Origin: Cladocopium goreaui
Lineage: Eukaryota; Sar; Dinophyceae; Suessiales; Symbiodiniaceae
DNA: 64,000 nucleotides
NCBI GenBank assembly: GCA_947184155.2
Contig: CAMXCT020000824.1
Location: forward strand, 616,001 to 680,000
Reading direction: 5' to 3'
Below are positions 5,867-61,900 of the stretch, piece after piece (position 1 is the stretch's first letter; each line of letters starts with the position of its first letter). The notes below the pieces were generated by a model. It had not been told where the DNA came from and did not search any database. It saw only the letters and a list, made by a program, of their open reading frames with translations. The position numbers and the translations under genes were made by a program.

Positions 5867-6945
5867 TTTTTCCCCACCTGCCAGGTGAGGGTTGTTAGAT
5901 TTTATGTCAGTTGCTTCCTCCTCGTCCTCCTCCTCCTCCTCCTCTCCTCTCTTCTCCTCTCCTCTCCTCGTCTCCTCTCCGCGTCTCCTCTCCTCCTGCT
6001 CCCTGCCGGACTTCAACCACGACCATCCACGCCCAGTGTGCCCTGCCGGACCTCAACCACGACCATCCACGTGTTCCCTGCCGGACCTCAACCGCGAGTA
6101 TCCGGGCCCAGTGTTCCCTGCCGGACCTGAACCACGACCATCCACGCCCAGTGTTCCCTGCCGGACCTCAACCACGACCATCCACGCCCAGTGTTCCCTG
6201 CCGGACCTCAACCGCGGGTATCCGCGCCCAGTGTTCCCTGCCGGACCTGAACCACGACCATCCACGCCCAGTGTTCCCTGCCGGACCTCAACCGCGAGGA
6301 TCCATGCCAAGTGTTCCCTGCCGGGCCTCAACCACGACCATCCACGCCCAGTGTTCCCTGCCGGACCTCAACCGCGAGTATCCACGCCAAGTGTTCCCTG
6401 CCGGACCTCAACCGCGAGTATCCACGCCAAAAGATATGCCACATAGAGTGCCAGAAGATATGCCAGATAGAATGTTAGAAGATATGCCAGATAGAATGCC
6501 AGAAGGTATGCCAGATAGAATGCCAGATAGAATGTCAGCTAGAATGCCAGAAGATATGCCAGATAAAGTGCCTAGAATGTTTGCCAGATAGAATGCCAGC
6601 AGATTTGCCAGATAATATGCCAGAAGATATGCTAGATAGAATGCCAGATGGAAATGCCAGAAGATTTGCCAGATAATATGCCAGAAGATATGCCAGATAG
6701 AATGCCAGATGGAATGCCAGAAGATATGCCAGAACATATGCCAGAAGATATGCCAGAAGATATGCCAGAGAATCTGCCAGAAGATATGCCAGAACATCTG
6801 CCAGAAGATATGCCAGGTAGAATGCCAGAAGATATGCCAGATAGAATGCCAGATCGAATGCCAGAAAATATGTCAGATAGAATGCCAGAAGATTTGCCAG
6901 TAACAAAATGTATAAATGTCATGGTGGGGATCACACGAAGTAAAG
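5867..6945 (+). mobile_element. Composite array element, copy 1
   Basis: Order: 5' end TTTTTCCCCACCTG CCAGGTGAGGG with the palindrome CACCTGCCAGGTG; GTTGTTAGATTTTAT; a TCC-rich tract; 40-bp units (5998-6431) built on CTGCCGGACCTCAACC; 12-bp units (6432-6901) of ATGCCAGAAGAT and ATGCCAGATAGA; then 3' end AAAATGTATAAATG TCATGGTGGGGATCA CACGAAGTAAAGT. Copies 2-4 share the ends. No transposase gene inside. The long reading frames are open in several frames because the unit lengths and contents lack stops. Confidence 0.85.
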
Positions 6946-8222
6946 TTTTTTTTTTTTTTTTCTGGGTTGGGTATATTTCATCAGATGATCCCAGAGTGAT
7001 CTGATCCTACGCTGCTCTTGGCTCCAGGCCATTGGTTGAATATCGCACTGGAACGCTATAGGAACCTAGGAGGGAGCACCGAAACTGGGTGAAACATGTT
7101 CGGTAGGTGAATGGGCTATTTTTGGGGCTTGTGTATGGGCGGTTGGAAGTCATATCTTGCTGAAGAGGCAAAACAGTTAAACATAATAAACATATGAGTT
7201 GTTTTCAAACCCCCATGAACTGTAGAGGTATCTACATAGACTAACCGACTATGGGGCACCACCTTGTGAACATATCAACCAGACTCCATCGCTTTGCCAT
7301 GCACCCCAGGTCGAGCTTAGACCTAGGGGAACAGCAGACCCTCAAGCTCGATCGATATCCAACCGTAGATATATCCACCAAAAAACGATTCGTTTCTGTT
7401 TGCCCAGTTATCTCTACTAACATCCCCAGTATACAACTCAACAATATTTCTGTGTCCACTTGTGAATCAGTCAAATCCCCATAATACCAAGTGACCTATC
7501 GTCCTATCCTAATGCAACCCCTGTGAAACTGTGAACCCCCTAAAATCGTCAAGCCGACAACGCAATGTCACAAGCAGATGATGCCGCGGGGGGCCATGCC
7601 ACATTTATGAGGCAGCTGGGTGTCACGATGGGCTGATCTCAAGGGCTTTTGAACCCCAAAAGGAAGGTTCTATGCATGTCCTGGCACTCCTTTCAAGACT
7701 TGGATGGTAAACATATGGTATATCCTCTAGATGGTAGGAAAATAACCAGATGGTTATTAACCAGATGGTTAGTTTCTGGTCATGGATGATATTGAACATT
7801 GAAAGGAAAACCATTTCACTCTATGGCGACCATGATTTTCCTGATCTCTCTTTTTTATCAATCCATGGACACATCAGATTCGCTCATGGCAGAAACCGCA
7901 TCCATCCCTGGGGGTCAATGATCTTGACCCCCCATGATTTTAGCATGGCATTGCTTCTTTGAAGATAGGCCGGTGCCACCTTTTTTGCGATCAGGCATTG
8001 CTTAGTACGGGGTATACAGAATGTTTAAAGGCTGGAGTAAATTGGTGGATGGTTGGTGAAATGGTGAGTGTTTAAGCACACGTTTTTTTGACAACGGAGA
8101 AATTGGATATCCCGCTTTTTGACCCTCGGGTCATCTAAGGGAGGTTTCCTGATACAACCTATGTGGTCCCTGAGATAACACTTCACCGGGTGAACCGCCA
8201 TGGAATCTTAAAATATGTCTAC
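6946..8222. other. Non-coding stretch
   Basis: A T-run follows the composite element (6946-6961). A fragment of the GGGGCACCACCTTG family lies at 7250. TAACCAGATGGTTA inverted words (7690-7760) look like a decayed element. No exon-like island. Confidence 0.45.
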
Positions 8223-37900: not shown

Positions 37901-40900
37901 ATATATTCTATAAATGGGGTTTTCTATTCGTACTTATAACTGGTTTTTCACTTGGGCCATAACTGTACAATCAGCAGTTCTCGGCCATAGAAAAATCCAC
38001 GGCCGATCGCACCAGGCATACAGTCTTTCGGGATTTGAAACCTGCAGCTCGGTTGCCTTGGCTCGGAGATGAGGTCATAAAAAGAAGCAGATCCCATGGA
38101 TTCCGATGGTTAATGATGGTTAATGATGGTTAATAATGGTTAATAATCACTGGTTGGTGGTGACTGGAACATGGCTGAAATATGTTCCCCAATAGGAACT
38201 GGATGATGATCCAATCTTTTTCGAAGTCCATCATTTTTCAGAGGGCTAGCGAAAAACCACCAACCAGATCAGGTTCCCCTTTTTTTGGCCATGAGTTTTT
38301 ACGGGGAATCCCCCATGGCGCAACAAGCCCAGAGGGGCTCATCCGGAGGCTCATCCCACAAGAATTTCACAGGAACTCGCCATCGTCCCAAGAGTGAGGT
38401 CCTTATGGAATGATGGTGAACGTAGGGGTACCAATATCATCCAATATCCACAAAAAACATCTGATATCCACAGTGTCCACAGTTGACGTTTTGCAGGGCA
38501 TGATCGTGTCAATGTACGCATTTAGATGCATTTAGTACCCAGTTGCCAAACTGTATCAAACTGTTTTGCAAATCCGGCTGTTTTGCCACAAAAAGCAGTT
38601 AGCAGACCCGGCTGTTCCATCAATGCCGCAAGACTCATAAAGTGGATCCGATGCATCTCTTTTACTCGGGTTTATGGAGATTTGGGGAGGCAAAGGTGCA
38701 ACCGCAACGAAAACCGAGTGGAGACAGCAGATGCGCCTACCGAGTGTAGCGGCTTACCTACTGGAATGTGGAGAATGTGGAAAGAATCCTCGAATCGATG
38801 CCCCCAGAGGATGAATAGTTGTCTAAACCCCATTGCCATTAACCATAGCTATACGGTAACGACATTTAAATATGTGGAGGGCGGGCCAGACCGCAAGGCC
38901 CCGGAGGTAGTATGAAATACCAGTTCGTATATTTAAATGTAGTTGCAGTATGTTTAAATGAATTGGATTCCGTATGTTTAAATGGCTGGGCAGGCCAAGG
39001 AAAACCTTCCCGGAGGTAGTCTAAAATACCTGTTCGTATATTTAAAAATCCGTATATTTAAATGTAGTTACCGTATATTTAAGTATCATAAACCGTAGCT
39101 ATTGGAGTTATAAACCAACTTAGCTATCGTTTACTGGGGCCCCACATAGCAGTTGATCCGAATTCTTCAGGACCAACGCAAAGGTCAACAACTCATTCCC
39201 AATGGTAACGAATCCCAAATGGCAACTGTGACTATCCCGACATGTCTTTAATGTGTTCCAATCATTTTCACAGTTGATCAACATCCTATACTCATGTTTG
39301 TTTTCCTATCCCATATGCTCCATGTATGGTATATTTACCTACAAAACTGGGTGATTTTGTTCGGGCAAATGTTGGCATTCATATTCCATACATGGAGCAT
39401 ATGGGTATTTGGTGATGATTTTGGAGTGCCTGATCAGGGGCGAAGAGTGCCATAAGGACAATGTGGTCATCGATGAGTCCCACCATGCCTTGTTGACGGA
39501 CTTCGGCTTGTCCAAGGAGATCATCGATGGGGAAAGCAACCAGAAAAAATGGATGTTTTGACGAGGGTTTAACCATGGTTTTAAGGGTTTCACAACCCGG
39601 TATGTGTTAATTGATAAATGGTTGTTGAATTATAAACTATGGTTTAACTATATATATATATATGTGGTTTAATGGGATTAACTATATATACATATTATAT
39701 ATATGGTTGAATCATCATCATCATCACCAAGACCATCATCATCATCATCATCATCATCAAGAAAGTACTGTGAATCCTGGTCTTAGCCAACCAGGAGTGA
39801 TAGATTAGGTTTTGACCACTGCTTAATTGCCGTTTTGGCATCGCTGAAGTGCGTTTGGACGAAAAAAGAGCGCTAAACGACGATATGGCTGACACTTAAG
39901 TGAGACTTACCCTCCAGGAACTAAACATGGCTATGGAAAACGTTTAAAGATTATCTACCCATTAAAATCCAAAAAAATGGTGAGGTGCCGTAGATATGTT
40001 AAGTGTGCCAGATGGTAAGTTGCTGTGTTCCTCAATTTCGATTCTTTCAGGGGCTCGTTCTCAGATGTACTTCCGGGGGCGAGCTGCGCGGACAAAATTG
40101 TGATAGCTTATACTGTCTAAAGTCAGTTGGGTATGGTGAATCCTATTGCTTTACTGACACAATATGATTAGTTTCGTTACAAATCATGGAAAGTATGGCT
40201 ATGCTGCACTATCTATGGATAGGTGCGTCTCGATCACCACCTTGGTGAAACCAACGTTCCCCCATCGTAGAATCAATTACCCTCCAGTAAACTAACAGTT
40301 TGCTATGGAAAATGGTCCATTTATAGTGGATTTACCTATGGAAAATGGTGATTTTCTATAGTTATTTTAAATTACCATAGGGTAGAATCATGTGTCCCCA
40401 CTGGTGTTTTAACATAGCCATGGAAGCCATGGCCCATAGAAATAGATGATTTTCCCAGCGAACTAAACCTCCATTTATAAGGGATTTTCCATGGCTATGT
40501 TAAATAACCATATGGTATCACTGGGGATCTGTATCCCATATGCGAACCATGGTGCTGGAATATGAATCCCAACATTTGCCCGAACAAAATCACCCAGTTT
40601 TGCAGGTAAATATACCATACATGGAGTCATATGGGTATTGTTACACCATATTATTTTGACAAACTTACAATGTTTGCTATATTCTCATATATGTAGTCGC
40701 TTGCAAGTTTAAGAAATGATCATCCAGCCGCATTTGGTCTGCACAAATTATAGCGAGGACAGCCGAGGCAACGAGGCAGGTTGCAGGAATTAGTGAGGTC
40801 AGCCCTTAATTTGCTCATCAGAATTAGCCGACCTCGACGAGGTAGCCTTGCATTGGTTCTGTTGCATGCTTGGGCTTGGCTAGAAAAACTTTTTGGGGGG

Positions 40901-43900
40901 CCAGAGGCCGGTCAGCAGGCAAGGAAGGAAAAAAAACTTTTCAGGCCCCAAAAAGTTTTATTTTCTACCGCCAGAGGCCGGTCAGCAGGCAAGGAAGGAA
41001 AAAAAACTAAAAAAACTTTTCAGGCCCCAAAAAGTTTTATTTTCTATCGCCAGAGGCCGGTCAGCAGGCAAGGAAGGAAAAAAAACTTTTCAGGCCCCAA
41101 AAAGTTTTATTTTCTATCGCCAGAGGCCGGTCAGCAGGCAAGGAAGGAAAAACAACTTTTCAGGCCCCAAAAAGTTTTATTTTCTATCGCCAGAGGCCGG
41201 TCAGCAGGCAAGGAAGGGATCAAAAAACTTTTCAGGCCCCAAAAAGTTTTATTTTCTATCGCCAGAGGCCGGTCAGCAGGCAAGGAAGGGATCAAAAAAC
41301 TTTTCAGGCCCCAAAAAGTTTTATTTTCTATCGCCAGAGGCCCGCTTCGTGGGTTGACGGCTGCAGAAGCAGTAGCATTCAGAGTTGCTCCAGAAGAGCA
41401 TTGCATCTCTGCGATGATGTCAGAGATGTCACCACCCAAGCGCAAGAAGCGCAAAGACCGATCAGACTCAGATTTAAAAATCCCTGCAAGAGACCGTGGA
41501 TCGTGGAAAAAAACTTTTCGGAAGCTGAAAAGTTTTTTTCCTTGGGGTTGGACCCTGGAAAGAAGGCCCACAAGCTACTTTCTTCCTTCGAATTAACGAG
41601 GTAAAGCCTTAATTTGCACCTGCAAATTAACGAACGAGGACAGTAATCATGGGGAACAAATTAAGACACGAGGGAGACGAGGTAAGAATTAAAGTAATTT
41701 GGCCAGATTTGGTGCAAACGTATGTTTTGTTTTGTCATATCTTCATGAATCAACATGAGTATCATGTACCATCATTATTTGTCTACATGTGTTGTTCCTT
41801 TACATCTATGTTTAACCAATGTTTTATCAATGTTTTTTCCTTCTAGACAAGTTCTAAAAATCTTGTTTTTGATTTCAGGTTTCATAATTGCATATACTCA
41901 TACATATTACATTTGTTTTATTAAGTTATATTATATTATATTAAAATTAAATTAAATTAGTATTATATTATATTAGTATTATAGTATATATCATATTGTA
42001 TAGTATTATTCTTTTTAATATTATATAATATTTATTTTTAATATAATATTGTATTTTATACAATATTATCTCTTATACAATATTATCTATCATACCATAT
42101 AAAATTTTCAAATATATTATATACTATTATATATATTATATTATAATATATTATATTATACTATACTCTACTATATTATGTTATATATTATGTTATATAC
42201 TATACATTAAATATGATATATGATTTGTTATATATTATGTTATATATATTATATATTATATTGTATATATATATATGTATGTATATTACAATTCTGTACA
42301 CGTATTTATTGGTATGTACACATGCGCTATGGTCAAAACAGCGTCTTTTCTTCTTTAAAATTTCAGACATGTGCAGCACAATGGTGGGATGATTTGACCC
42401 CATGCGTTCACCATGGCACCAATGAACATATATGGATGGTTAATGGCGCTTAGTGGTTAATGGTTAACGGGGTTACTTAGGTAACCACCAACTGGAATAG
42501 TTAACTACAGTACTAAACTATAACTTAAACTATAACTATAGTACTATGTTACTATACCTATTCATAGTGGTTTGGAATGGTTTATAAATATTTATAACAT
42601 CTTATAACAAATAGTTGTGGTTATGATAATCATGATGTATGGATGGTTAATGGTGCTTAGTGGTGATGAATTAGTATTAATGGAGATCAATGGAAATAAT
42701 GGGACAATATAATGTTTTTTTCTTGATGGGAATATTATGGTATATAATGGAAATATCTGGGTCAATTTCATCACGATTTCACTGTCCTCACTGGAAATCA
42801 TGGTCAATAAGGGAAATCATCCCCAGATGACTATGATTTACTCATTATAAGTGGGGCCTTTTGCTGTGATGTTGGTCTACATAGGCTTGGTTTTTGTTTC
42901 CGATGTGATGACTGTCTGTTCCTTATTTGTCTGACCATTGGCTGTGAGGGTACAGGACTCTGGACCGGTCATCCTCTGCGGCGTTCCGTCGCTGGGGGAG
43001 GGCCGATTGCGAAGTATGTGGGCCTTAACTCAGGTTAGTGAAATATGATAATTTACCCAGATATGTACATATATATATATATATCCGGGATATATGTACA
43101 ATATATAGATGCAATATATATATATTATACAATATTTACAATACTCATCTTTTCCACGCAATACAATTTTTATTTAGAGTACGTGTGTCTATATATACCT
43201 GATATATTTACACACATTATACATATACGCATCATATACACATAATAACACACATACTAAAACTAACAAACATAGTAATCATATAAGAATACATGTTTTT
43301 CCCCACCTGCCAGGTGAGGGTTGTTAGATTTTATCAGAGCTGTTCTCCTCCTCCTCCGCCTCCGCATCCTCCTCCTCCTCGTCCTCCTCCTCCTCCTCGC
43401 AGTCCAGATCCCAGTGGGCACTGCCGGACCTCAACCGCGAGCGCCAGATCCCAGTGGGCACTGCCGGACCTCCACCGCGAGCTCCAGATCCCAGTGGGCA
43501 CTGCCGGACCTCAACCGCGACTTCCAGGTTGCAGTGGGCACTGCCGGACCTCAACCGCGACTTCCAGATCGCAGTGGGCACTGCCGGACCTCAACCGCGA
43601 CTTCCAGATCCCAGTGTGCACTGCCGGACCTCAACGGCCAGATAGAATGCCAGAAGATATGCCAAATAGAATGCCAGAAGATATGTCAGAAGATATGCCA
43701 GAACATATGCCAGAAGATATGCCAGAACATATGCCAGAAGATATGCCAGATAGAATGCCAGAAGATATGTCAGATAGAATGCCAGAAGATTTGCCAGATA
43801 GAATGCCAGAAGATATGCCAGAACATATGCCAGAAGATATGCCAGATAGAAAGCCAGATAGAATGCCAGAAGATATGTCAGATAGAATGCCAGAAGATTT

Positions 43901-46900
43901 GCCAGATAGAATGCCAGAAGATATGCCAGAAGATATGCCAGAACATATGCCAGGAGATATGTCAGATAGAATGCCAGAAGATTTGCCAGTAAGAAAATGT
44001 ATAAATGCCATGGTGGGGATCATTCGAAGTGAAGTAATTTATCTCATATATTCTACTATTGCATATTATTATACATATATATATACACATGGATCCAAAC
44101 ACTGTCTAAGAAGGTACTTAACCCCCCAAATCATGCCCCAGTCCCACTTCCTAAGAAGGTATTTGGATCCATAGGGATTATATATCATCACCATTTTTTT
44201 ATAGGTAAATCAACTATAAATGGGCCATTTTCAATATGTTTTTGTATGTTTACCAGAGGATATATATATATATATACCCATAAGATCCATGTATGGTATA
44301 TATGGTAACATGGATCCCATCAATATACCCCAGTCATGTTAGCATATATACCAGCACCATGGATCCTATGGGATATATATTGTACCTTTCTGTAGCTATA
44401 CATTGGTTCCCTCCTGTCGCAGGAGGGCGTGGGGCAGCGCGGCACCAAATCCTTCTGTGGTTCCGTGGCCTTTCTGGCGCCCGAGATTCTGCTACGGAAA
44501 GGCCAGGCCGAAACGGCGCCGAGGGCCGGCGGAGGGCCGTTTCATAGGATTCAACCGGAAATTTCATGTGATTTTTTATGGGATTTGGGAATGTAAGATG
44601 AGAATTTATGGCACTTTATGGGATTTTAAAGGATATGTAATTAGATGTTATGGGAGTTTGATGTGAATTTATGGGACATTCATGCGATTTCATGAGGTTT
44701 GAGCAAATCAGATGGGGGATATCAACATTTTTTTGGAGGGAAATATCCCATGGGACATATAACCAACTTAATAAATCTTAATATGAGATATGGCTGTATC
44801 TGAAAATCATGTATACGGTATACGCTCAGGTGTGTTTTTCCCCACCTGCCAGGTGAGGGTTGTTAGATTTTATCAGAGTTGTTCTCCTCCCCCTCCTCCT
44901 CGGCTAGCTATCCTCCTGCTCCTCCTGCTCCTCCTCCGCCAGCATCTCCTCCACCACCTCTGCCTCCACTTCCACGTCCACTGTTGCCTTGCCAACTCTT
45001 CGCCAAGCTCTTCGCCAACGTCCGAGCTCAGTGTGCACCGCTGGACCTCAACCTGGGACCTTCCCAGCTCAGTGGGCACTGCTGGACCTCAACCTGGCCG
45101 CTGGGCCTCAACCTGGGACCTGCCCAGCTCAGTGTGCACCGCTGGACCTCAACCTGGGACCTTCCCAGCTCAGTGTGAACTGCTGGACCTCAACCTGGGA
45201 CCTGCCCACCTCAGTGTGCACCGCTGGACCTCAACGGCCAGATAGAATGCCAGAAGATATGCCAGATAGAATGCCATAAGATATGCCAGATAGAGTGCCA
45301 GAAGATATGCCAGATAGAATGTTAGAAGATATGTCAGATAGAATGCCAGAAGGTATGTCAGATAGAATGCCAGAAGGTATGTCAGATAGAATGCCAGAAG
45401 ATATGCCAGATAAAGTGCCAGAATGTTTGCCAGATAGAATGCCAGAAGATTTGCCAGATAATATGCCAGAAGATATGCCAGATAGAATGCCAGATGGAAT
45501 GCCAGAAGATATGCCAGAAAATATGCCAGAAGATATGCCAGGTAGAATGCCAGAAGATATGCCAGATAGAATGCCAGATGGAATGCCAGAAGATATGCCA
45601 GAACATCTGCCAGAAGATTTGCCAGGTAGAATGCCAGAAGCTATGCCAGATAGAATGCCAGAAGATATGTCAGATAGAATGCCAGAAGATTTGCCAGTAA
45701 CAAAATGTATAAATGTCATGGTGGGGATCACGCGAAGTAAAGTAATTTTATATAATGTATATATAATATATTTAATTGAAATTGCGGGGTAGCCTTGTTT
45801 TCAAACAACCCTATATGATTTTCCACGGGGACATTTTTTGGGAATCTACGGGAATATCATAGGATCCAAGATCCAAATGTAAAAAAAATGGTAGAACATG
45901 ATATCACTCAAAGGTGATTGGGATTTAATGTTAATGGGATGTCAATGAGGACCTCAATAATCAAAAAATAACATATACCTGCAAACCATGAACAGTTGTG
46001 TAGATACTACTTGTACAAACAAAAACTGAGGTTTAAACCCATGAGATTTTGGGGTTTGGGCACCATGTTCAGAAAAACCCACTAGGGGACTTGGTAAAGT
46101 TGCGGAGTTTGCAGTTGTTTTCTTTTTACATCCAAGACTTAAGAGTTGTTTCTTAACCATGAAACATACAGTAATGTTGATTACTGTAAACAAATGAATT
46201 TTGAAGCATCACACGTTAAGAGTTATCCATGGAAATACATGGGAATGCTGCATCAAAATTCGAACAATTAAGCTCCGAACCTTGGCATTTCAAGTATCAT
46301 AAAATGCAATTTTATATGATTTGGCCATACAAGATGAAGATTTATGAGCCATGGTATTGTAATCAATAATCTGTGCAAATTCATTTGCAACTTCACTGAC
46401 CTCACTTGCGCTAAATGATCTCAGGACTTTACCCTATATCCAAGGGATGTGAACATTGAAACACCGCTGCTTAGCTCAGATCTTCGTGTTTCCAGCCCAG
46501 GCGATGATGAGATCTACACGACTGCAATTCCAACCATTGCTACATTCCCATGACATGGGACAAAATAGGGTGCCCAAAATCTGGAACGTGTTATCAAAAG
46601 ACGTTGCCTACAGGATAGTACCCCAATTTGTTCGCCAAGTTGATTTTCTCTAGTCTAATATCTATAATATATATATATATATAAATGTTGGAGTTATGGT
46701 GGGTCTATGGTGAGTGTATGGTGAGTATAACAGCTAGCATGGGTTTATATAGTAACTAGGGAGCATGTTAGTGTATTCGGAGTTTCGAGACCCATATTCC
46801 TGCAGGTCACAACCACACGGTGGATATTTACAACCTCGGTGTGCTTCTGTACGACATGCTCACGGGTCTTCCTCCGCCCCTCCGTCCGCACGTAGCCTGT

Positions 46901-49900
46901 GATGTTTTTTCTCTGGGGGGGAAGTTCAGCCATTAATTCTGGGCAAATTCTAACGACCTCACTGCAACCTCGCTGGAATCATGGTTAAGAAGGGGTATCA
47001 TCCCAAAATTGTCTTATTGCAGGTTAGTGAATTATTATAATTTGCCTAGATTAATGATCATTGTGGATTTTTCATATCTGCGTTTTTCACTGGCAAGGAT
47101 TATGGTGAGAGCATGAAGCTCAAAATGATCCATGAATATATGTTTTTCTGAATGCAGTTAATTAATATGAAAGTCCCATGGATTTCTGGCAAACAGTGAT
47201 ATATGGTGGATTTCAATACTAAAATAGTCTAATTTGGATGATTTGGGGGTACCCCCATGACTTAGGAAACCTCCATACTGTGGATGGAAGAAACCCTGCA
47301 CCACCTTGGGCGTTTGAAACTTGATCAGTTCTATCCCTTCATGGCACTTTTTGAAGGGTTGAAACTTGAAACCCATCCTTAAAATCATGGGCTGAATAAA
47401 GCACCTGCCTCAACTGGTGCAGGATTTCTTCCACCCTCCACAGGCTTTGTCTATGTATGTCTACATCTGAACAACAAAGATGCGGATGTTTCTTACCATC
47501 CCCAGTTGTCCTCTGAGTTGCTCCTTTTCTTTTTCCGAAGTCTGTGGTTACCAGTTGACGACACGGTCAGCTCAGACATCTTGACCAAAAAAAACTAGGG
47601 CATGTTGTGTATCTATAAACTCTTATTTACCCTCTTGTAAACCAACATAACTATGGAAAATCACATTTTTTTAATGGGAAAACTCACTATACATGGCCAT
47701 TTTCAATAGCTATGTTAGTTTACCAAAGGGTAGTTGTATTTCATGAATTTTAAGTTTAAAACTGTTTCCACACTGATTTTGGTTTGGTACTTGAAACATT
47801 AGGAGGAAACCCTGTTCCATCCACTGATTAGTCATCATGTTGCGTCTTAAAAGATACCTTTTGATTTGGGGGTTAATCCTTTCACCCATATTCAGGCACA
47901 CCCAATTATGTCAGTTCAATGCTGGTTATATATTTCATGATGTACCATGATATCCCCATATTGTCGGTTATATTTCCTATTTGTGATTATCGATGTATTG
48001 TTATGTTCCCATTCTCTCTCCAAGCCACAAGCTCAAAATTGTTCAGGGCCGTTTTTGCATCATGGCACCTTGCTTAGGTTCTACCATCACGACAGGGAAA
48101 CCTTGTTCGCCAACATCAAGCATGCACGACTAGAGGCAGCTGGGACTGGCTTTCTTCAGTGCGGAATGGCTGGGAGAACCGTGGCTGGGGAGTTTTTCAA
48201 GGTAGGTTGATGTGAACATTGCCACATTGTGTATATATTATATACTACCGAGGAAGAATACCCTTAGTTTTGTGTTGGTTTGGAGTATTGAGGTATGTCT
48301 CTCTCTCTCTCTCTATGTGTGTGTGTGTAATTGTATATACGTATATATATATATATACAATACACGTACATTCCATGACTTGATTTGGTGTGCTGGTGAC
48401 AAAGACCTCTATGCTTTATTTTCTGCCACTGACTAAAGCACCATTTGACCATATTTCTAGCTCGAACATCCCAATTCCCAACAGCTACCATATCTATTCT
48501 CCATATTAAAACAATCGTAAATTGGTGCATATCATATTCATTCACATTCCCTAATATGAAACCATGAACTTTCATTTCAGGTGGGTTTTAAAGCAGTAAT
48601 CCCATCCCCTGTAATCAGATGTTGAGCAATCAGAAGTCCCACCTCAGATACAGTAGCGATAAAGCATCCCCTCGGCTGAAAATAGGCTACCACCCCCCCA
48701 TTCTGACATAGTTTCTGACATAATGTTTGGAAGTGTATATGACATATATATATATATATCAATACAACATTCTATCTGATATTCTTCCTTGGATATGCTC
48801 TGACATTCTATCTGACATTCTATCTGGCATCTATTCTGACATGCTTTCTGGCATATGTTTTGACATTCGCTTCTGGCTTTCTATCTGCCATGTGTTCTGA
48901 CACACTATCTTGCCGGTCTCTCTAACATTTTCTTCTGGCATTCTGCCTGGCATCTATTCTGACATTCTGTTTGGCATTCTATCTGGCATTCTCTCTGGCA
49001 AGTGTTCGGGTCCAGGCGTGCCCCACAGCATCCGGAGCTGGCGATATGCTGTTCGGAGGAAGAGGAGGAGGAAGAAGAAGAAGATGAGGAGGAGTGGCAC
49101 CTTTGTTAAAATCTAGAGACCCTCACCTAATTGGCAGGTGGGGAAAAAGAATGGTGTTCAGAGGCTTCATGGTTTTAAATTGGGCTTTAAATCGCTGATC
49201 ATACTGTTCTTCACATGTTTGGGGTATCCCGGTCTTTCCGACATTCAGCGACACCCAAGTCGGGTTCCATGAACCGTCTCAGGTGACCAACCATGACCGT
49301 ATCATTCTGCATTGTCACAAGCGATGCATCCAATGATCGACAAAAATAGTTAGGATAGTTCTCTCCTCCTCAGACTTACAGCCCAACTAACAGTTTTAAA
49401 TGGGATGAACTAATTCTTGCAACTGTTTGATTATATGTCACTTCTATAAATCATGTTATCTAAACCAGTTATGACTCACAGGGCATATGGGATTCTTGCA
49501 CGTTAACTCACCATATCTTGTTGCTCATATTCCAAATATTCACATTGACTGGTTGGTTATCCCAAAAAATGTTTGGTTGGTGGTTTGGAACATTTTTCTT
49601 TTCCATAATACATGGGATAATCCTTCCCATTGACTAATATTGTTCAAAGGGGTTGAAACCACCAACCAGAATAACATTTAAGTCCAACTCAATCCAACTT
49701 AAAGTGTGTGTTTGTCCCGTTTAAACTTCAAGTCATCACAAACCCAGTGGTAAAAGTTGGTACATGTACAAGGTGAGGCCCCCAGTTGCAAGTTGGTTTA
49801 CAAACCCCTCTACTTACAGTTCGATTCCCCATAACACAGTTAACCAAGTGATTTCAACCATTAAACATAGCCTGGTTGATTGTTTACGAACTAGGGACTT

Positions 49901-55900: not shown

Positions 55901-58900
55901 CCCAACTGACGAACTCATATTTTTCAGAGGGGTAGGTCAACCACCAACCAGAGATGTAATGATCTATTCCCATATCATCCCCTGTGGATCCAAACACCGT
56001 CTAGGAAGGTACTTAACCCCCCAAATCATACCCCGGCCCACTTCCTAAGAAGCTATTTGGATCCATAGGGATTACCCTCTGTTAAGCAGCCACATAACTA
56101 TGGAAAATCACCATTTTATAGCTGGGTAAATCCACTATTTCGACTGGGCCATTTTCAATAGCTAATATGATCACAACCCATAGACAGCTGTCCCAATGAC
56201 TCCAGTTGATCGTCTCCAGGTCCCCACTTGGCTTGGCTCGCGCCCCCGAGAGCCCCTTCGCGCGTGCGGATCGCGCCCCTCGCTGGAGGGCAAGGCGACG
56301 ACGGCGATGATGGCGGCGCCGAGAGGATGATGTCAGGGAGATCTTCAGGAAAGAGCCTATGGGTTGATAGGCAATTATTTGGTAACTTTATGTATTTATG
56401 ATCATCATATTAATGATGATAGGGTAATTCTATGTTCCGAATGTGGTAACTATGGTGAATTATACGATAATCATGTGTAAATTATAACTAGAATATTGGC
56501 GAAGGCTATGGGTTCATGGTACTTACATATTTGTATTCCTTCTTAGACTTTCATGGGGACTCTTGTGGCTTCATGTGGTTTCGACATTGATGCCCTTCAT
56601 GCGGTGCCAGGTATGTGCGAGGCCCAAATGGCGGAAGTGATCGCGGAGCGCCTGGGCCAAAATGATGTTTCCTTGCGGAGTAAACATAGCAGTCAATGGG
56701 TATAACATTAAATGATGAATTATTAGTGGTAAATGGTCATTAATGATAGATATTAATGGATATATATATATATAATGGACCCCGCCCACATAGAATATAG
56801 AATTGAAATTTTGGCTTCCCAGGGCATCCCCATAATTGAACTTGAAAACATTTACTTAGAATACAGTTGACGTCAAAAAACCTATACTTAGAATATCGTT
56901 GGGCCATATAAATTCTTTCACTTTTCCAGACGAATTCGTCATTTTTCCATAGAAATTCTTCACTTTTCTTTATAAATCCTTCACGTTTCCATACAAATAC
57001 AAACTCTTCACTTTTCCATATTTTTGCCATACAAATTCTTTCACTTGTTCAGTCAAATTGATCATTTTTCCATGTATTTATATATATATATATATTTAAG
57101 AAATCCTTCGCATTTCTATACAAATTCTTCACTTTTCCATTTTTTTCCATACGAATTCTTCCCTTCGGTGAGCCTGAAAAAATCATTTTTTTAATACAAT
57201 ATGAAAAGAAATTGATCATTTCGGGGCACCTTTTTTTGTTTGTTAAAACGTTCTAGTTTACGGACTTCAGACATCCAGGGGTGCTTCTCCCCAAAGGGAA
57301 TTACGTATATGATATATTATATTGATATATACCCTTATACTTTTACATGAAAGATACCCCATTCCTTGCAGAACTACATACATAGAATATAGGTCCCCAA
57401 TGAAAATAGCTAACCATTCCTTTGGGAACACCAACTAATTCCAGTAGTTTCATTGCAAACTATTTTTTTCCATTGTTCTCCGACACCGTTCGTGGGGGGT
57501 ACCCTTCGGTGAGCTTGAAAAACTCAGTTTTTTTAATTCAATATATAAAAAAAATGATCATTTCGGGGGACCTGTTTTTTTGTTGAAACGTTCCAGTTTA
57601 GGAACTTCAGATATCCAGGATTGCTGCTACCCAAAGGGAATTACGTATATAATAATTATACATGAAGGGGACCCTATTGCTTGCAAAACTACATACATAG
57701 AATATAGGTCCCCAGTGAAAAATATTCATCATTTTTTGAAGGAATGCCACCTAAGTCCATTAGTTTTCATTGCAAACTAGTTTTTTTTTTTCATAGTTCT
57801 CCGACACCGGTCGTGGGGGGTACCCTTCGGTGAGCTTGAAAAACTCGTTTTTTTAATACAATATGAAAAGAAATTGATCATTTCGGGGGAGCTGTTTTTT
57901 GTTGAAACGTTCTAGTTCACGGACTTCAGACATCAAAAATTGCTGCTCCCCAAAGGGAATTACGTATATTATATAATAATTATACATGAAGGGGACCCTA
58001 TTCCTTGCAGAACTACATACATAGAAAATAGGTCCCCAGGGAAAATACTCATCATTTTTTTAAAGGAATGCCACCTAAGTCTATTGGTTTTCATTGCAAC
58101 ATATTTTTTTCATAGTTCTACGACAAAGATCATTTCTTTAACGCAATATGAAAAGAAATTGATCATTTCGGGGGACCTGTTTTTTTGTTGAAACGTTCCA
58201 GTTTAGGAACTTCAGACACCCAGGATTGCTACTCCCCAAACGGAATTACGTATATCATATACACCCTTTTGATTGGAAGAGATAAAATTCCTTTCAGAAC
58301 TACATACATAGAATATAGGTCCCCGGTGAAAATATTCATTCATTTTATTGGCTTTCATTGCAAAAATATGTGTTTGGTCATAGTTTCCCGACACCGGTCG
58401 TGGGGGATACCCTTCGGTGAGCTTGAAAAACTCATTTTTTTAATTCAATGTATAAAAAAAATGATCATTTCGGGGGACCTGTTTTTTGCGGACTTCAGAC
58501 ATCCAGGATTGCTGCTCCCCAAAGGGAATTATGTATATAATAATCATACATGAAGGGGACCCTATGGCTTGCAAAACTACATACATAGAATATAGGTCCC
58601 CAGTGAAAATATTCATCAATTTTTGAAGGAATGCCACCTAAGTCCATTAGTTTTCATTGCAAAATAGTTTATTTTCATAGTTCTCCGACACCGGTCGTGG
58701 GGGTTGCCCTTCGGTGAGTTTGCAAAACTCATTTTTTTAATACAATATGAAAAGAAATTGATCATTTCGGGGGACCTGTTTTTTTGTTGAAACGTTCTAG
58801 TTTACGGACTTCAGACATCAAAAATTGCTGCTCCCCAAAGGGAATTACGTATATAATAATCATACATGAAGGGGACCCTATTCCTTGCAGAACTACATAC

Positions 58901-61900
58901 ATAGAAAATAGGTCCCCAGTGAAAATATTCATCAATTTTTTAAGGAATGCCACCTAAGTCCATTGGTTTTCATTGCAAAATATTTTTTTAGTTGATTTTC
59001 ATAGTTCTCCAACACCGTTCGTGGGGGGTACCCTTCGGTGAGCTTGAAAAACTCATTTTTTTAATACAATATAAAAAGAAATTGATCATTTCGGGGGACC
59101 TGTTTTTTTCTTGAAACGTTCCAGTTTAGGAACTTCAGATATCCAGGATTGCTTCTACCCAAAGGGAATTACGTATATAATAATTATTCATGAAGGGGAC
59201 CCTATTCCTTGCAAAACTACATACATAGAATATAGGTCCCCAGTGAAAATATTCATCATTTTTTAAAGGAATGCCACCTAAGTCCATTGGTTTTCATTGC
59301 AAACTAGTGTTTTTTCATAGTTCTACGACACCGGTCGTGGGGGGTACCCTTCGTTGAGCTTGAAAAACTAATTTTTTTAATACAATATGGAAAGAAATTG
59401 ATCATTTCGGGGGACCTGTTTTTTTGTTGAAACGTTCTAGTTTACGGACTTCAGACATCCAGGATTGCTGCTCCCCAAAGGGAATTACGTATATAATAAT
59501 CATACATGAAGTGGGCCCTATTCCTTGCAGAACTACATACATAGAAAATAGGTCCCCAGTGAAAATGTTCATCCATTTTTTCAGGAACACCACCTAATTC
59601 CATTAGTTTTAATTGCAAAATAGTTCTTTTCTCATAGTTCTCGGACACCGGTCGTAGAGGGTAGGTACCCTTCGGTGAGCTTGAAAAACTCATTTTTTTA
59701 AATACAATATGAAAAGAAATTGATCATTTCGGGGGACCTGTTTTTTTGTTGAAACGTTCCAGTTTAGGAACTTCAGACATCCAGGATTGCTGCTCCCCAA
59801 AGGGAATTTTGTATATAATACTCATACATGAAGGGGACCCTATTCCTTGCAGAACTACATACATAGAATATAGGTCCCCAGTGAAAATATTCATCAATTT
59901 TTGAAGGAATGCCACCTAAGTCCATTGGTTTTCATTGCAAAATAGTTCTTTTCTCATAGTTCTCGGACACCGGTCGTAGAGGGTAGGTACCCTTCGGTGA
60001 GCTTGAAAAACTCATTTTTTTTAATACAATATGAAAAGAAATTGATCATTTCGGGGGAGCTGTTTTTTTGTTGAAGCGTTCCAGTTTAGGAACTTCAGAC
60101 ATCCAGGATTGCTGCTCCCCAAAGGGAATTATGTATATGATAATTATATAACCTTATACATGGAAAAGATCAAATTCCTTGCAGAACTATATACATAGAA
60201 TATAGGTCCCCAGTGAAAATATTCATCCATTTTTTCAGGAACACCACCTAATTCCATTAGTTTTCATTGCAAAATAGTTCTTTTCTCATAGTTCTCGGAC
60301 ACCGGTCAAGGTGGGTACCTTTAGGTGAGCTTGAACAATTTCAAAAAGGATTTTTATGGTGTTTTGGTGGATTTTAGTGGGGTGAAAAAAAATGAAACAT
60401 GACCATTTATGTTCATTTATGTTGCGGTATGGGTGATATGTTGATAATTCAAAGGATTTTAGTGGGATGACAATTTGAAAAAATGACCATGTATGTCCAT
60501 TTATGCTGCAATATGGGTGATATTTTGATAATTCAACCGAAAATTAGTGGGGTGAAAAATTCAAAAAATATCAATTTATGTCCATTTATGCTGCAGTATG
60601 GGTGATATGTTGATAATTCAAATGGGGAGAAAACACATGAGCACGAAATGGGGGCATATTCTAAGTGGAGTTACGGTCGAGTTCAACTGCATAATTGGAA
60701 AAACGGATATTCTAAGATAACGGGGTAGATTATATATATATGGGATATTAATGGGATGATACACTAGGTCAATCAACTGGATGGGTAGAAAATAATCCTA
60801 ACTAGTCTTTTGGTATGGGATTATCTACGTTCACCAGCTAAGATTGTTTTTTTTGCTGAGTATCTAAGATTGGCCATGATCAGGGGAAGACAAATTGTTG
60901 TTGTAGTAAGGGAGCATTGGAAAGTGATCCGCACATTTTGGTTGTATGAATCCGCATTTGTTTTATTTGCTTGTTGAATTGGAAATTGACTCTCAGGCGC
61001 GTGAAGTTCATGAGTGATCCATGTTGATCCTGCATATAGGGTGTGTCTGAAACGGGGTATCCGGTATACCCCCCAAACTGGCAGTTTCTATTAGGGAACA
61101 TGATGATATTGTGGTCTACCCCCTATTAGACAAATCCATGTTGGACGGCTTCATGTTCTAAACAACAGCCCAACAGTGCATTGTGTCTTTATCATACCTT
61201 CCCTCGCTGGACACATCCAAAAAGCCTCGATCCATGGCTTGGAAGTAGCCGGATCATCTTGGTGAAACCACCTATTGATAGCGAAGTTGGGGATAGATAG
61301 CGCCAATTTCTCCATGGTTTATGATGTAACAGTATTCATGGGGTGAAAACAAACCGGCTTATTACTTGGAAGGCCCCACATTGTATGTATATTATTGTAT
61401 ATTCATATGTATCTATAGTCATCTGTCTGTCAAGAAACTGCAGGTTTTGTTGTCCCCCTTTGAGGGTTTTTCCTGCACCCATCAAATAATCACCCCACCT
61501 GCAGCCCCAAGTACTGTACCTAGGTAGCTAGTCCTGTCTCCTGTAGTTGGAATCATTGCACTAATCTCCCATCTGTAGTCGCTATACTATCATGAGGGAT
61601 TCCTGGGATTTCCAGTTATTTGCTACATAGCTATGGTTAATGATGCTTAACGAAAGAGAATGACGATCAATGGTGATTTATGCTGGTTGGTGGTTTGGAA
61701 CATGAATTTTATGTTCCATTTCATATTGGGATGTCATCCTTCCCATTGAGGAACTCATATTTTTTAAGATGGTTAAAACCACCAACCAGAAACACATGTT
61801 TTCTCCACCAGCTTGCGATTCCAAGCATCTCAGGTCTCTGATTGGGATTGCAACTTGGACTACTCTGTGGCGCCCAACAGCCGCGGCACGAGCAATTTGT

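Follow-up and report, generated by a model that had tools for sequence, protein, structure and literature searches.

Cg_HINE elements of the oyster Crassostrea gigas are built, in the available portion of their published description, from a subTIR, an inverted repeat, a microsatellite, one or exceptionally two satellite-like arrays, a second subTIR and a palindrome (PMC7492417). The HINEs of the mite Metaseiulus and DINE-1 of Drosophila have palindromic subTIRs of 12–15 bp, which lie 2–4 nt from the 5' end and 38–60 bp from the 3' end, and a 3' palindrome; at least two Ts, varying in number between copies, border each side, and the target is left unmodified, as the accessible part of that report describes them (PMC4067079). 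Among the FoHeli elements of Fusarium oxysporum, which are of the Helitron2 type, FoHeli3-5 are without a 3' hairpin, and multiple 5' termini are ascribed to self-insertion in the excerpted account (PMC5148889).

Here we analyzed an array-bearing element in a 64-kb stretch of DNA (C824:616001-680000, referred to in its entirety as the window) from a host assembly of 1.17 Gb. We consider it probable that the element is a high-copy non-autonomous transposon working like a HINE, that is, a non-autonomous Helentron/Helitron2, in a dinoflagellate. The motif CCGTAGCCATTTTGGCTCAAG, which we take to be that of the dinoflagellate spliced leader, matched 251 places genome-wide (115 + 136, with at most one mismatch) vs 0 for the reversed control, and the host was therefore taken as a dinoflagellate. 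No match was present in 361 kb of sampled loci DNA, as expected because the genome-wide density is low (251 in 1.17 Gb).

Re-reading of the type copy bore out the extent (5867..6945, plus strand), the conserved ends and the two internal arrays given in the initial annotation. This copy is complete and belongs to the GTCAG subfamily. It starts with a run of five Ts (5867..5871, +) and a 5' end (5871..5891, +) that comprises the inverted-repeat half TCCCCACC and, according to folding, the hairpin CCCCACCTGCCAGGTGAGGG, with the palindrome at 5875-5887 (+). These are followed, all on the plus strand, by a CTC-rich pyrimidine microsatellite (5916..6002), a 40-bp array of 10.9 copies (6000..6428) and a 12/24-bp array of GCCAGAAGATAT GCCAGATAGAAT (6426..6900), after which comes TATAAATGTCATGGTGGGG. 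The 3' end module (6911..6945, +) holds the other inverted-repeat half, GGTGGGGA, at 6923-6930; its final fixed bases lie at about 6945, and a T run continues from there (6946..6961, +).

The window contains four copies, three of which keep the 3' end, in agreement with the count made at the outset. Besides the type copy, complete copies lie at 43296..44040 (+; left flank CAGAGCTG, right end ATCATTC, 40-bp units) and 44835..45749 (+; left flank CAGAGTTG, right end ATCACGC, 41-bp units). The fourth copy, on the reverse strand (48690..49148, the boundary at 48690 judged by eye), is diverged and has a widened palindrome, CACCTGCCAATTAGGTG, a short 12-bp array and a degraded 3' end. The 3' end matched three times in the window vs 0.05 expected, and 0 of 100 shuffles reached three. 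Exact palindromes in the window numbered three; with up to two mismatches there were six matches, which are the same three places read on either strand; a total of six was reached in 2 of 100 shuffles. By itself, the palindrome is unusual within the window to a moderate degree only. The window also holds other tandem arrays at 58492-60335 and 40900-41342 (316-bp and 70-bp units), with no relation to the array element as far as looked at.

The genome-wide search with both ends, which had been suggested as a check, returned 6,419 exact matches to the 13-base 5' palindrome (3,206 + 3,213) vs 12 (6 + 6) for the reversed pattern, and 3,868 matches (1,940 + 1,928) to the 27-place 3' end ATGGTGGGGATNACNCGAAGTNAAGTA vs 0 for the control. 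When 40 palindrome places were sampled as 5-kb pieces, 38 proved to be the array element, and a 3' end was recognized in 34 of these 38 loci (at most five mismatches, within 4.5 kb). The two remaining places (L009 and L010) are both on contig C1. This 7.38-Mb contig looks bacterial and is probably a culture associate; a reading frame in L009 matched PterinBD-DUF4346 in a profile search. Our tables of 37 complete copies combine the 34 loci with three copies from the window and leave out L020, L029, L031 and L042, in which the script recognized no 3' end, although in L042 a degenerate one is visible by eye. For pairing of the ends by coordinate, 96 of the 100 listed 5' ends were used (two C1 and two C47 places were left out). 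Among the matches listed, 62 of the 96 were joined to a 3' end, 57 of these 62 at less than 2.5 kb, and 34 stayed unpaired because the 3' list held near-exact ends only; the median element length of the 62 paired copies was ∼957 bp. The sampled copies were cut at the same bases and their flanks were mostly unrelated, with a few diverged exceptions (L020, L028, L029, L042 and L044). Since the sampled copies lie mostly at unrelated sites, the element is an interspersed mobile element. The 23-base 5' end gave 0 exact matches in viral contigs.

Between the fixed ends, the order is pyrimidine tract, 40/41-bp array and then 12-bp array, giving two arrays per copy. As had been noted from the window, both arrays differ between copies: their lengths vary, and the longer unit is of 40 or 41 bp according to subfamily. 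The window copies differ because they belong to different subfamilies. A GTCAG left flank occurred with 40-bp units and ATCACAC right ends in 18 of 18 copies among the 37 complete ones; in the same set, a given left flank mostly comes with a given unit type and right end, with mixed combinations in the smaller groups. Over 172 units of the 40-bp type, identity was 0.916 within a copy and 0.910 among different copies of one subfamily, and it fell to 0.724 across subfamilies. Since identity within a copy is about that between copies of one subfamily, unit types travel with subfamilies. The proposal that arrays evolve by slippage and conversion thus stood in part: array length varies among copies, but conversion inside each inserted copy was not visible in the identities of these units (0.916 vs 0.910). 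We also considered the arrays as coding sequence and rejected this, a stop-free forward frame being present in only 8 of 37 arrays and a reverse one in 15 of 37, and array lengths being divided evenly among the three frames (12/14/11). The 12-bp array can be read in one frame as MPEDMPDR, and the second window copy has a 295-aa open frame; the arrays look non-coding, and the element has no evident coding capacity.

We next turn to the insertion site. In 37 copies, the longest word shared by the two flanks averaged 1.97 for true pairs vs 1.90 (S.D. 0.28) for randomly re-paired ones (300 shuffles), and no target duplication beyond T was visible by this re-pairing. Two copies (L017 and L023) are embedded in repeats of other kinds, and uninterrupted paralogous relatives of these repeats, present in the sampled DNA, provide empty sites. 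At L023, removal of TTCCCC...GTAA leaves ATTTTTCCAT, as seen by eye in relatives in L029 and at 35.0 kb of the window. At L017, Ts are in surplus, which suggests that the element brought extra Ts, although the case is ambiguous. The flanks of L023 also drew our attention to a MITE-like repeat family of ∼110 bp with ends CTGGTTGGTGGTTT and AACCACCAACCAG, present in many sampled loci and, within the window, at about 11.7, 23.7, 35.0, 37.7, 49.6, 52.4, 55.9 and 61.7 kb.

The element has also inserted into itself. Element-in-element junctions in L083, L084 and L085 read GAGGGTTG|TTCCCC...AAAGTAA|TTAGATTTTAT, where the intact site is GAGGGTTGTTAGATTTTAT, so that the host element is split at G|TTAGATTTTAT; in L084 the host part is one T short, and the outer flanks of L084 and L085 are common to both. 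Because the inner left flanks of L083 and L084 differ, more than one insertion probably went into the same TT. Exact nested-type 3' junctions numbered 12 (control 0), and both nested junctions were found by coordinate at six loci (C491, C711, C937, C1141, C5543 and C5994). Of 23 5' ends with atypical sequence after them, 17 were doubled ends of this self-insertion kind; the doubled ends on C2083 are 25 bp apart, and some doubles may instead be short tandem duplications. Insertion occurs at a TT preceded by a purine, with no target duplication detected beyond the TT, and comparison of flanks, another of the suggested checks, yielded the empty sites of L017 and L023 and no duplication beyond TT. 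A duplicated target TT and a TT carried by the element look the same at these junctions. A copy number in the thousands, flanks that are mostly unrelated, the empty sites and the insertions into itself show that the element has moved in the past, and its initial description as a non-autonomous mobile cassette holds.

The start of the element was surveyed in 60 sampled places and four Rep loci with the pattern CCCCACCTGCCAGGTG; L009, L010, L028, L059, L069 and L072, which had no match to it, were left out, and L021 and L058, which have a common flank, were both counted. In the resulting 55 ends from 54 loci, the T run before CCCC was two Ts long in 20, three in 3, four in 0, five in 16, six in 13, eight in 1 and zero or one in 2. 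Starts with two and with five Ts were both present in the GTCAG subfamily. Background T runs of lengths 2–5 in the window fall steadily (4767, 1564, 547 and 169), and the five-T start is therefore not simply target sequence. The base before runs of at least two Ts was G in 31, A in 22 and C in 0 (n = 53), vs a background of 24% C in the window. At the 3' border of the 37 complete copies, GTAA was followed by at least two Ts in 26 and GTA by at least three Ts in 8, and 3 had no T. An asymmetric inverted repeat of 8 bp marks the ends, with TCCCCACC at the 5' terminus and GGTGGGGA ∼19 nt inside the 3' terminus. The 5' hairpin folds at -6 kcal/mol (z -2.68; an equally good fold arose in 4 of 200 shuffles), and none of the four 3' sequences folded gave a stem-loop (z -0.20, -0.60, 0.41 and 1.13).

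A hairpin at one end only, and a partner that was not found, would also suit a non-autonomous element of another HUH class, whether a canonical Helitron read in reverse (its hairpin end being the 3' end), a Replitron or an undescribed dinoflagellate lineage. Base-specific TT insertion with no other duplication is likewise expected of other HUH elements. The ends, TTCCCC and GTAATT, and the TT target do not agree with a canonical Helitron either way round: reversed, the element does not have the 5'-TC and 3'-CTRR termini, the hairpin lies 2 nt from the end vs ∼11, and the target is TT vs AT. The asymmetric repeats and variable T runs specifically fit Helentrons, and we regard another HUH class as unlikely, if still worth keeping in mind.

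We also looked for a Rep/helicase partner in the genome. The profile Helitron_like_N (PF14214) had at least 145 scored matches (330 candidates, 150 scored). These matches include dozens of Helitron Rep genes, with several families near-identical in score and open frames of 2,000–4,800 aa. In a domain scan, Helitron_like_N and the start of PIF1 were found in L050, and PIF1 and Pif1_2B in L074, so that the two scanned pieces show one gene that has both Rep and PIF1 helicase domains. A complete array element lies ∼0.7 kb upstream of both top Rep matches (L049 and L050). It was rejected as a sign of a partner, since it is one insertion seen twice: the two loci are 97–99% identical through the element and beyond. 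Together with L073-L076, they show two contigs that are 97–99% identical over ∼9 kb, including the Rep/helicase gene and the one insertion, and are allelic or duplicated; the L049 copy of the gene carries one stop. Downstream of the Rep gene, in L074, there was no such end, nor were there ends at a further Rep locus (L078/L079). On C12, L031 lies ∼11 kb from a Rep match and runs into N.

Near-exact ends away from array-bearing elements numbered 23 and 30 for the 5' end (the 30 including the 23) and 2 and 8 for the 3' end; on C3210 and C2601, the 5' end is followed by sequence other than the arrays. When the lists were compared by eye, no atypical end shared a contig with any of the Rep matches listed (at least 145). 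A Rep/helicase element with these ends was not found with near-exact end patterns, which would miss a diverged partner, most places being known by coordinate alone, and the search for a long autonomous relative sharing the ends, raised at the outset, came back empty with these patterns. A long copy at C25:245682 (4,031 bp between ends) was considered as an autonomous candidate and rejected, as it is an ordinary copy that contains a 3.1-kb inverted-repeat transposon (L077). The inserted element (∼570-3690 of L077, in reverse-complement orientation) has long inverted ends, CACAGGGCCCACGACC...GGTCGTGGGCCCTGTG, and internal repeats, and is nested between both arrays of the one copy.

A more specific proposal is that the family represents a branch of single-strand (rolling-circle type) transposons in dinoflagellates that has a 5' hairpin only, a two- or five-T start and a core of two arrays, and that is mobilized by a Rep protein still to be connected with it; we put this forward tentatively and think it rather doubtful. 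The junctions are compatible with a 2-bp TT duplication and hence with a derivative of a cut-and-paste DNA transposon, but the termini TTCCCC and GTAATT are not mutual inverted repeats, and only one half of the short inverted repeat is at a terminus, the other half lying inward from its end; with non-complementary termini and no duplication beyond the possible TT, a TIR transposon is improbable. Variable T runs at both ends recall a retroposed, SINE-like element with an A/T tail. This we judge very improbable, since target duplications are absent, both ends are fixed, no 5' truncation pattern was noted in the sampled copies and the exact TT self-insertions disfavor it. Introners, intron-making elements, are reported to be abundant in dinoflagellates in the portion of the literature source at hand (PMC11453091). 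By eye, the 5' hairpin ends in CAG|GTGAGG and is followed by the pyrimidine tract (5882-6002 of the window), a resemblance to a splice donor and acceptor tract that may be chance. The element ends themselves are not splice sites, and the flanks are often AT-rich or within other repeats, which makes an introner hard to credit. Segmental duplication of one locus, named at the outset as a result that would overturn the reading, and to which the few copies with common flanks (L021/L058, L084/L085 and L049/L050) might point, is refuted for the family as a whole by the unrelated flanks of most other copies cut at the same bases, the empty sites and the nested copies.

Returning to the HINE-like reading, we infer a single-strand rolling-circle mechanism with Rep/helicase acting in trans and array change by slippage. 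A Rep/helicase protein supplied in trans would recognize the TCCCCACC/GGTGGGGA repeats and the 5' hairpin, and one strand would be peeled off by rolling-circle replication and joined at TT. Between the end modules, the pyrimidine tract and both tandem arrays would ride as passengers; array length would be altered by slippage or unequal exchange, and unit types would spread with successful subfamilies. If this is true, satellite-carrying HINE-like elements, which the reports used here describe mainly from animals, extend to a dinoflagellate with thousands of copies, and rolling-circle elements would serve more generally as carriers that disperse short tandem arrays in genomes. How the 5' end is chosen could readily be tested from the exactness of TT insertion, the two peaks of the T start and the insertions of the element into itself. 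A literature search of freely accessible journal papers found no work naming Helentrons and dinoflagellates together.

The initial annotation held that the element fits no standard class. Taken together, however, the subTIRs, 5' palindrome, TT insertion, variable T runs, microsatellite and central arrays match Helentron-type HINEs as these are described in the available parts of the reports (PMC4067079, PMC7492417). Counted against this reading are the lack of a 3' stem-loop, the short 8-bp repeat nearer the 3' end and the failure of the near-exact end patterns to reveal a matching Rep/helicase element. We accordingly call the element HINE-like, without assigning it formally to the HINEs.

Compared with the described part of Cg_HINE, the element shares a 5' subTIR with a complementary inverted repeat, a microsatellite, central arrays and a 3' subTIR, as well as the absence of target duplication, oligo-T insertion sites and array types tied to subfamilies; its two consecutive array clusters are the exceptional arrangement in the oyster. 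It differs in host (a dinoflagellate vs an animal), in its subTIR of 8 bp vs 11–12 bp, in monomers of 40/41 and 12 bp vs ∼140–180 bp, and in that the 3' palindrome of the oyster element was not found here (PMC7492417). Over the HINEs covered by these excerpts, the inverted repeat is 11–15 bp vs 8 bp here. Unlike the Metaseiulus HINEs and DINE-1, for which a 3' palindrome and a Rep/helicase/endonuclease partner are known, the element has yielded neither, and its 3' subTIR lies ∼19 nt from the end vs 38–60 bp. It resembles them, on the features excerpted, in having no coding capacity, a palindromic 5' subTIR near the end and an internal 3' subTIR, at least two Ts in variable number on each side, a TT or T-rich target and unmodified empty sites (PMC4067079). 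The FoHeli elements are about 5–11 kb long with Rep/helicase genes, FoHeli1 and 2 use a TNAT|A target vs TT here, and central arrays such as those of our element are not mentioned in the part of the account at hand. Like them, the element has asymmetric terminal inverted repeats and a 5' hairpin, like FoHeli3-5 it has no 3' hairpin, and like FoHeli it forms composites with more than one 5' terminus (PMC5148889).
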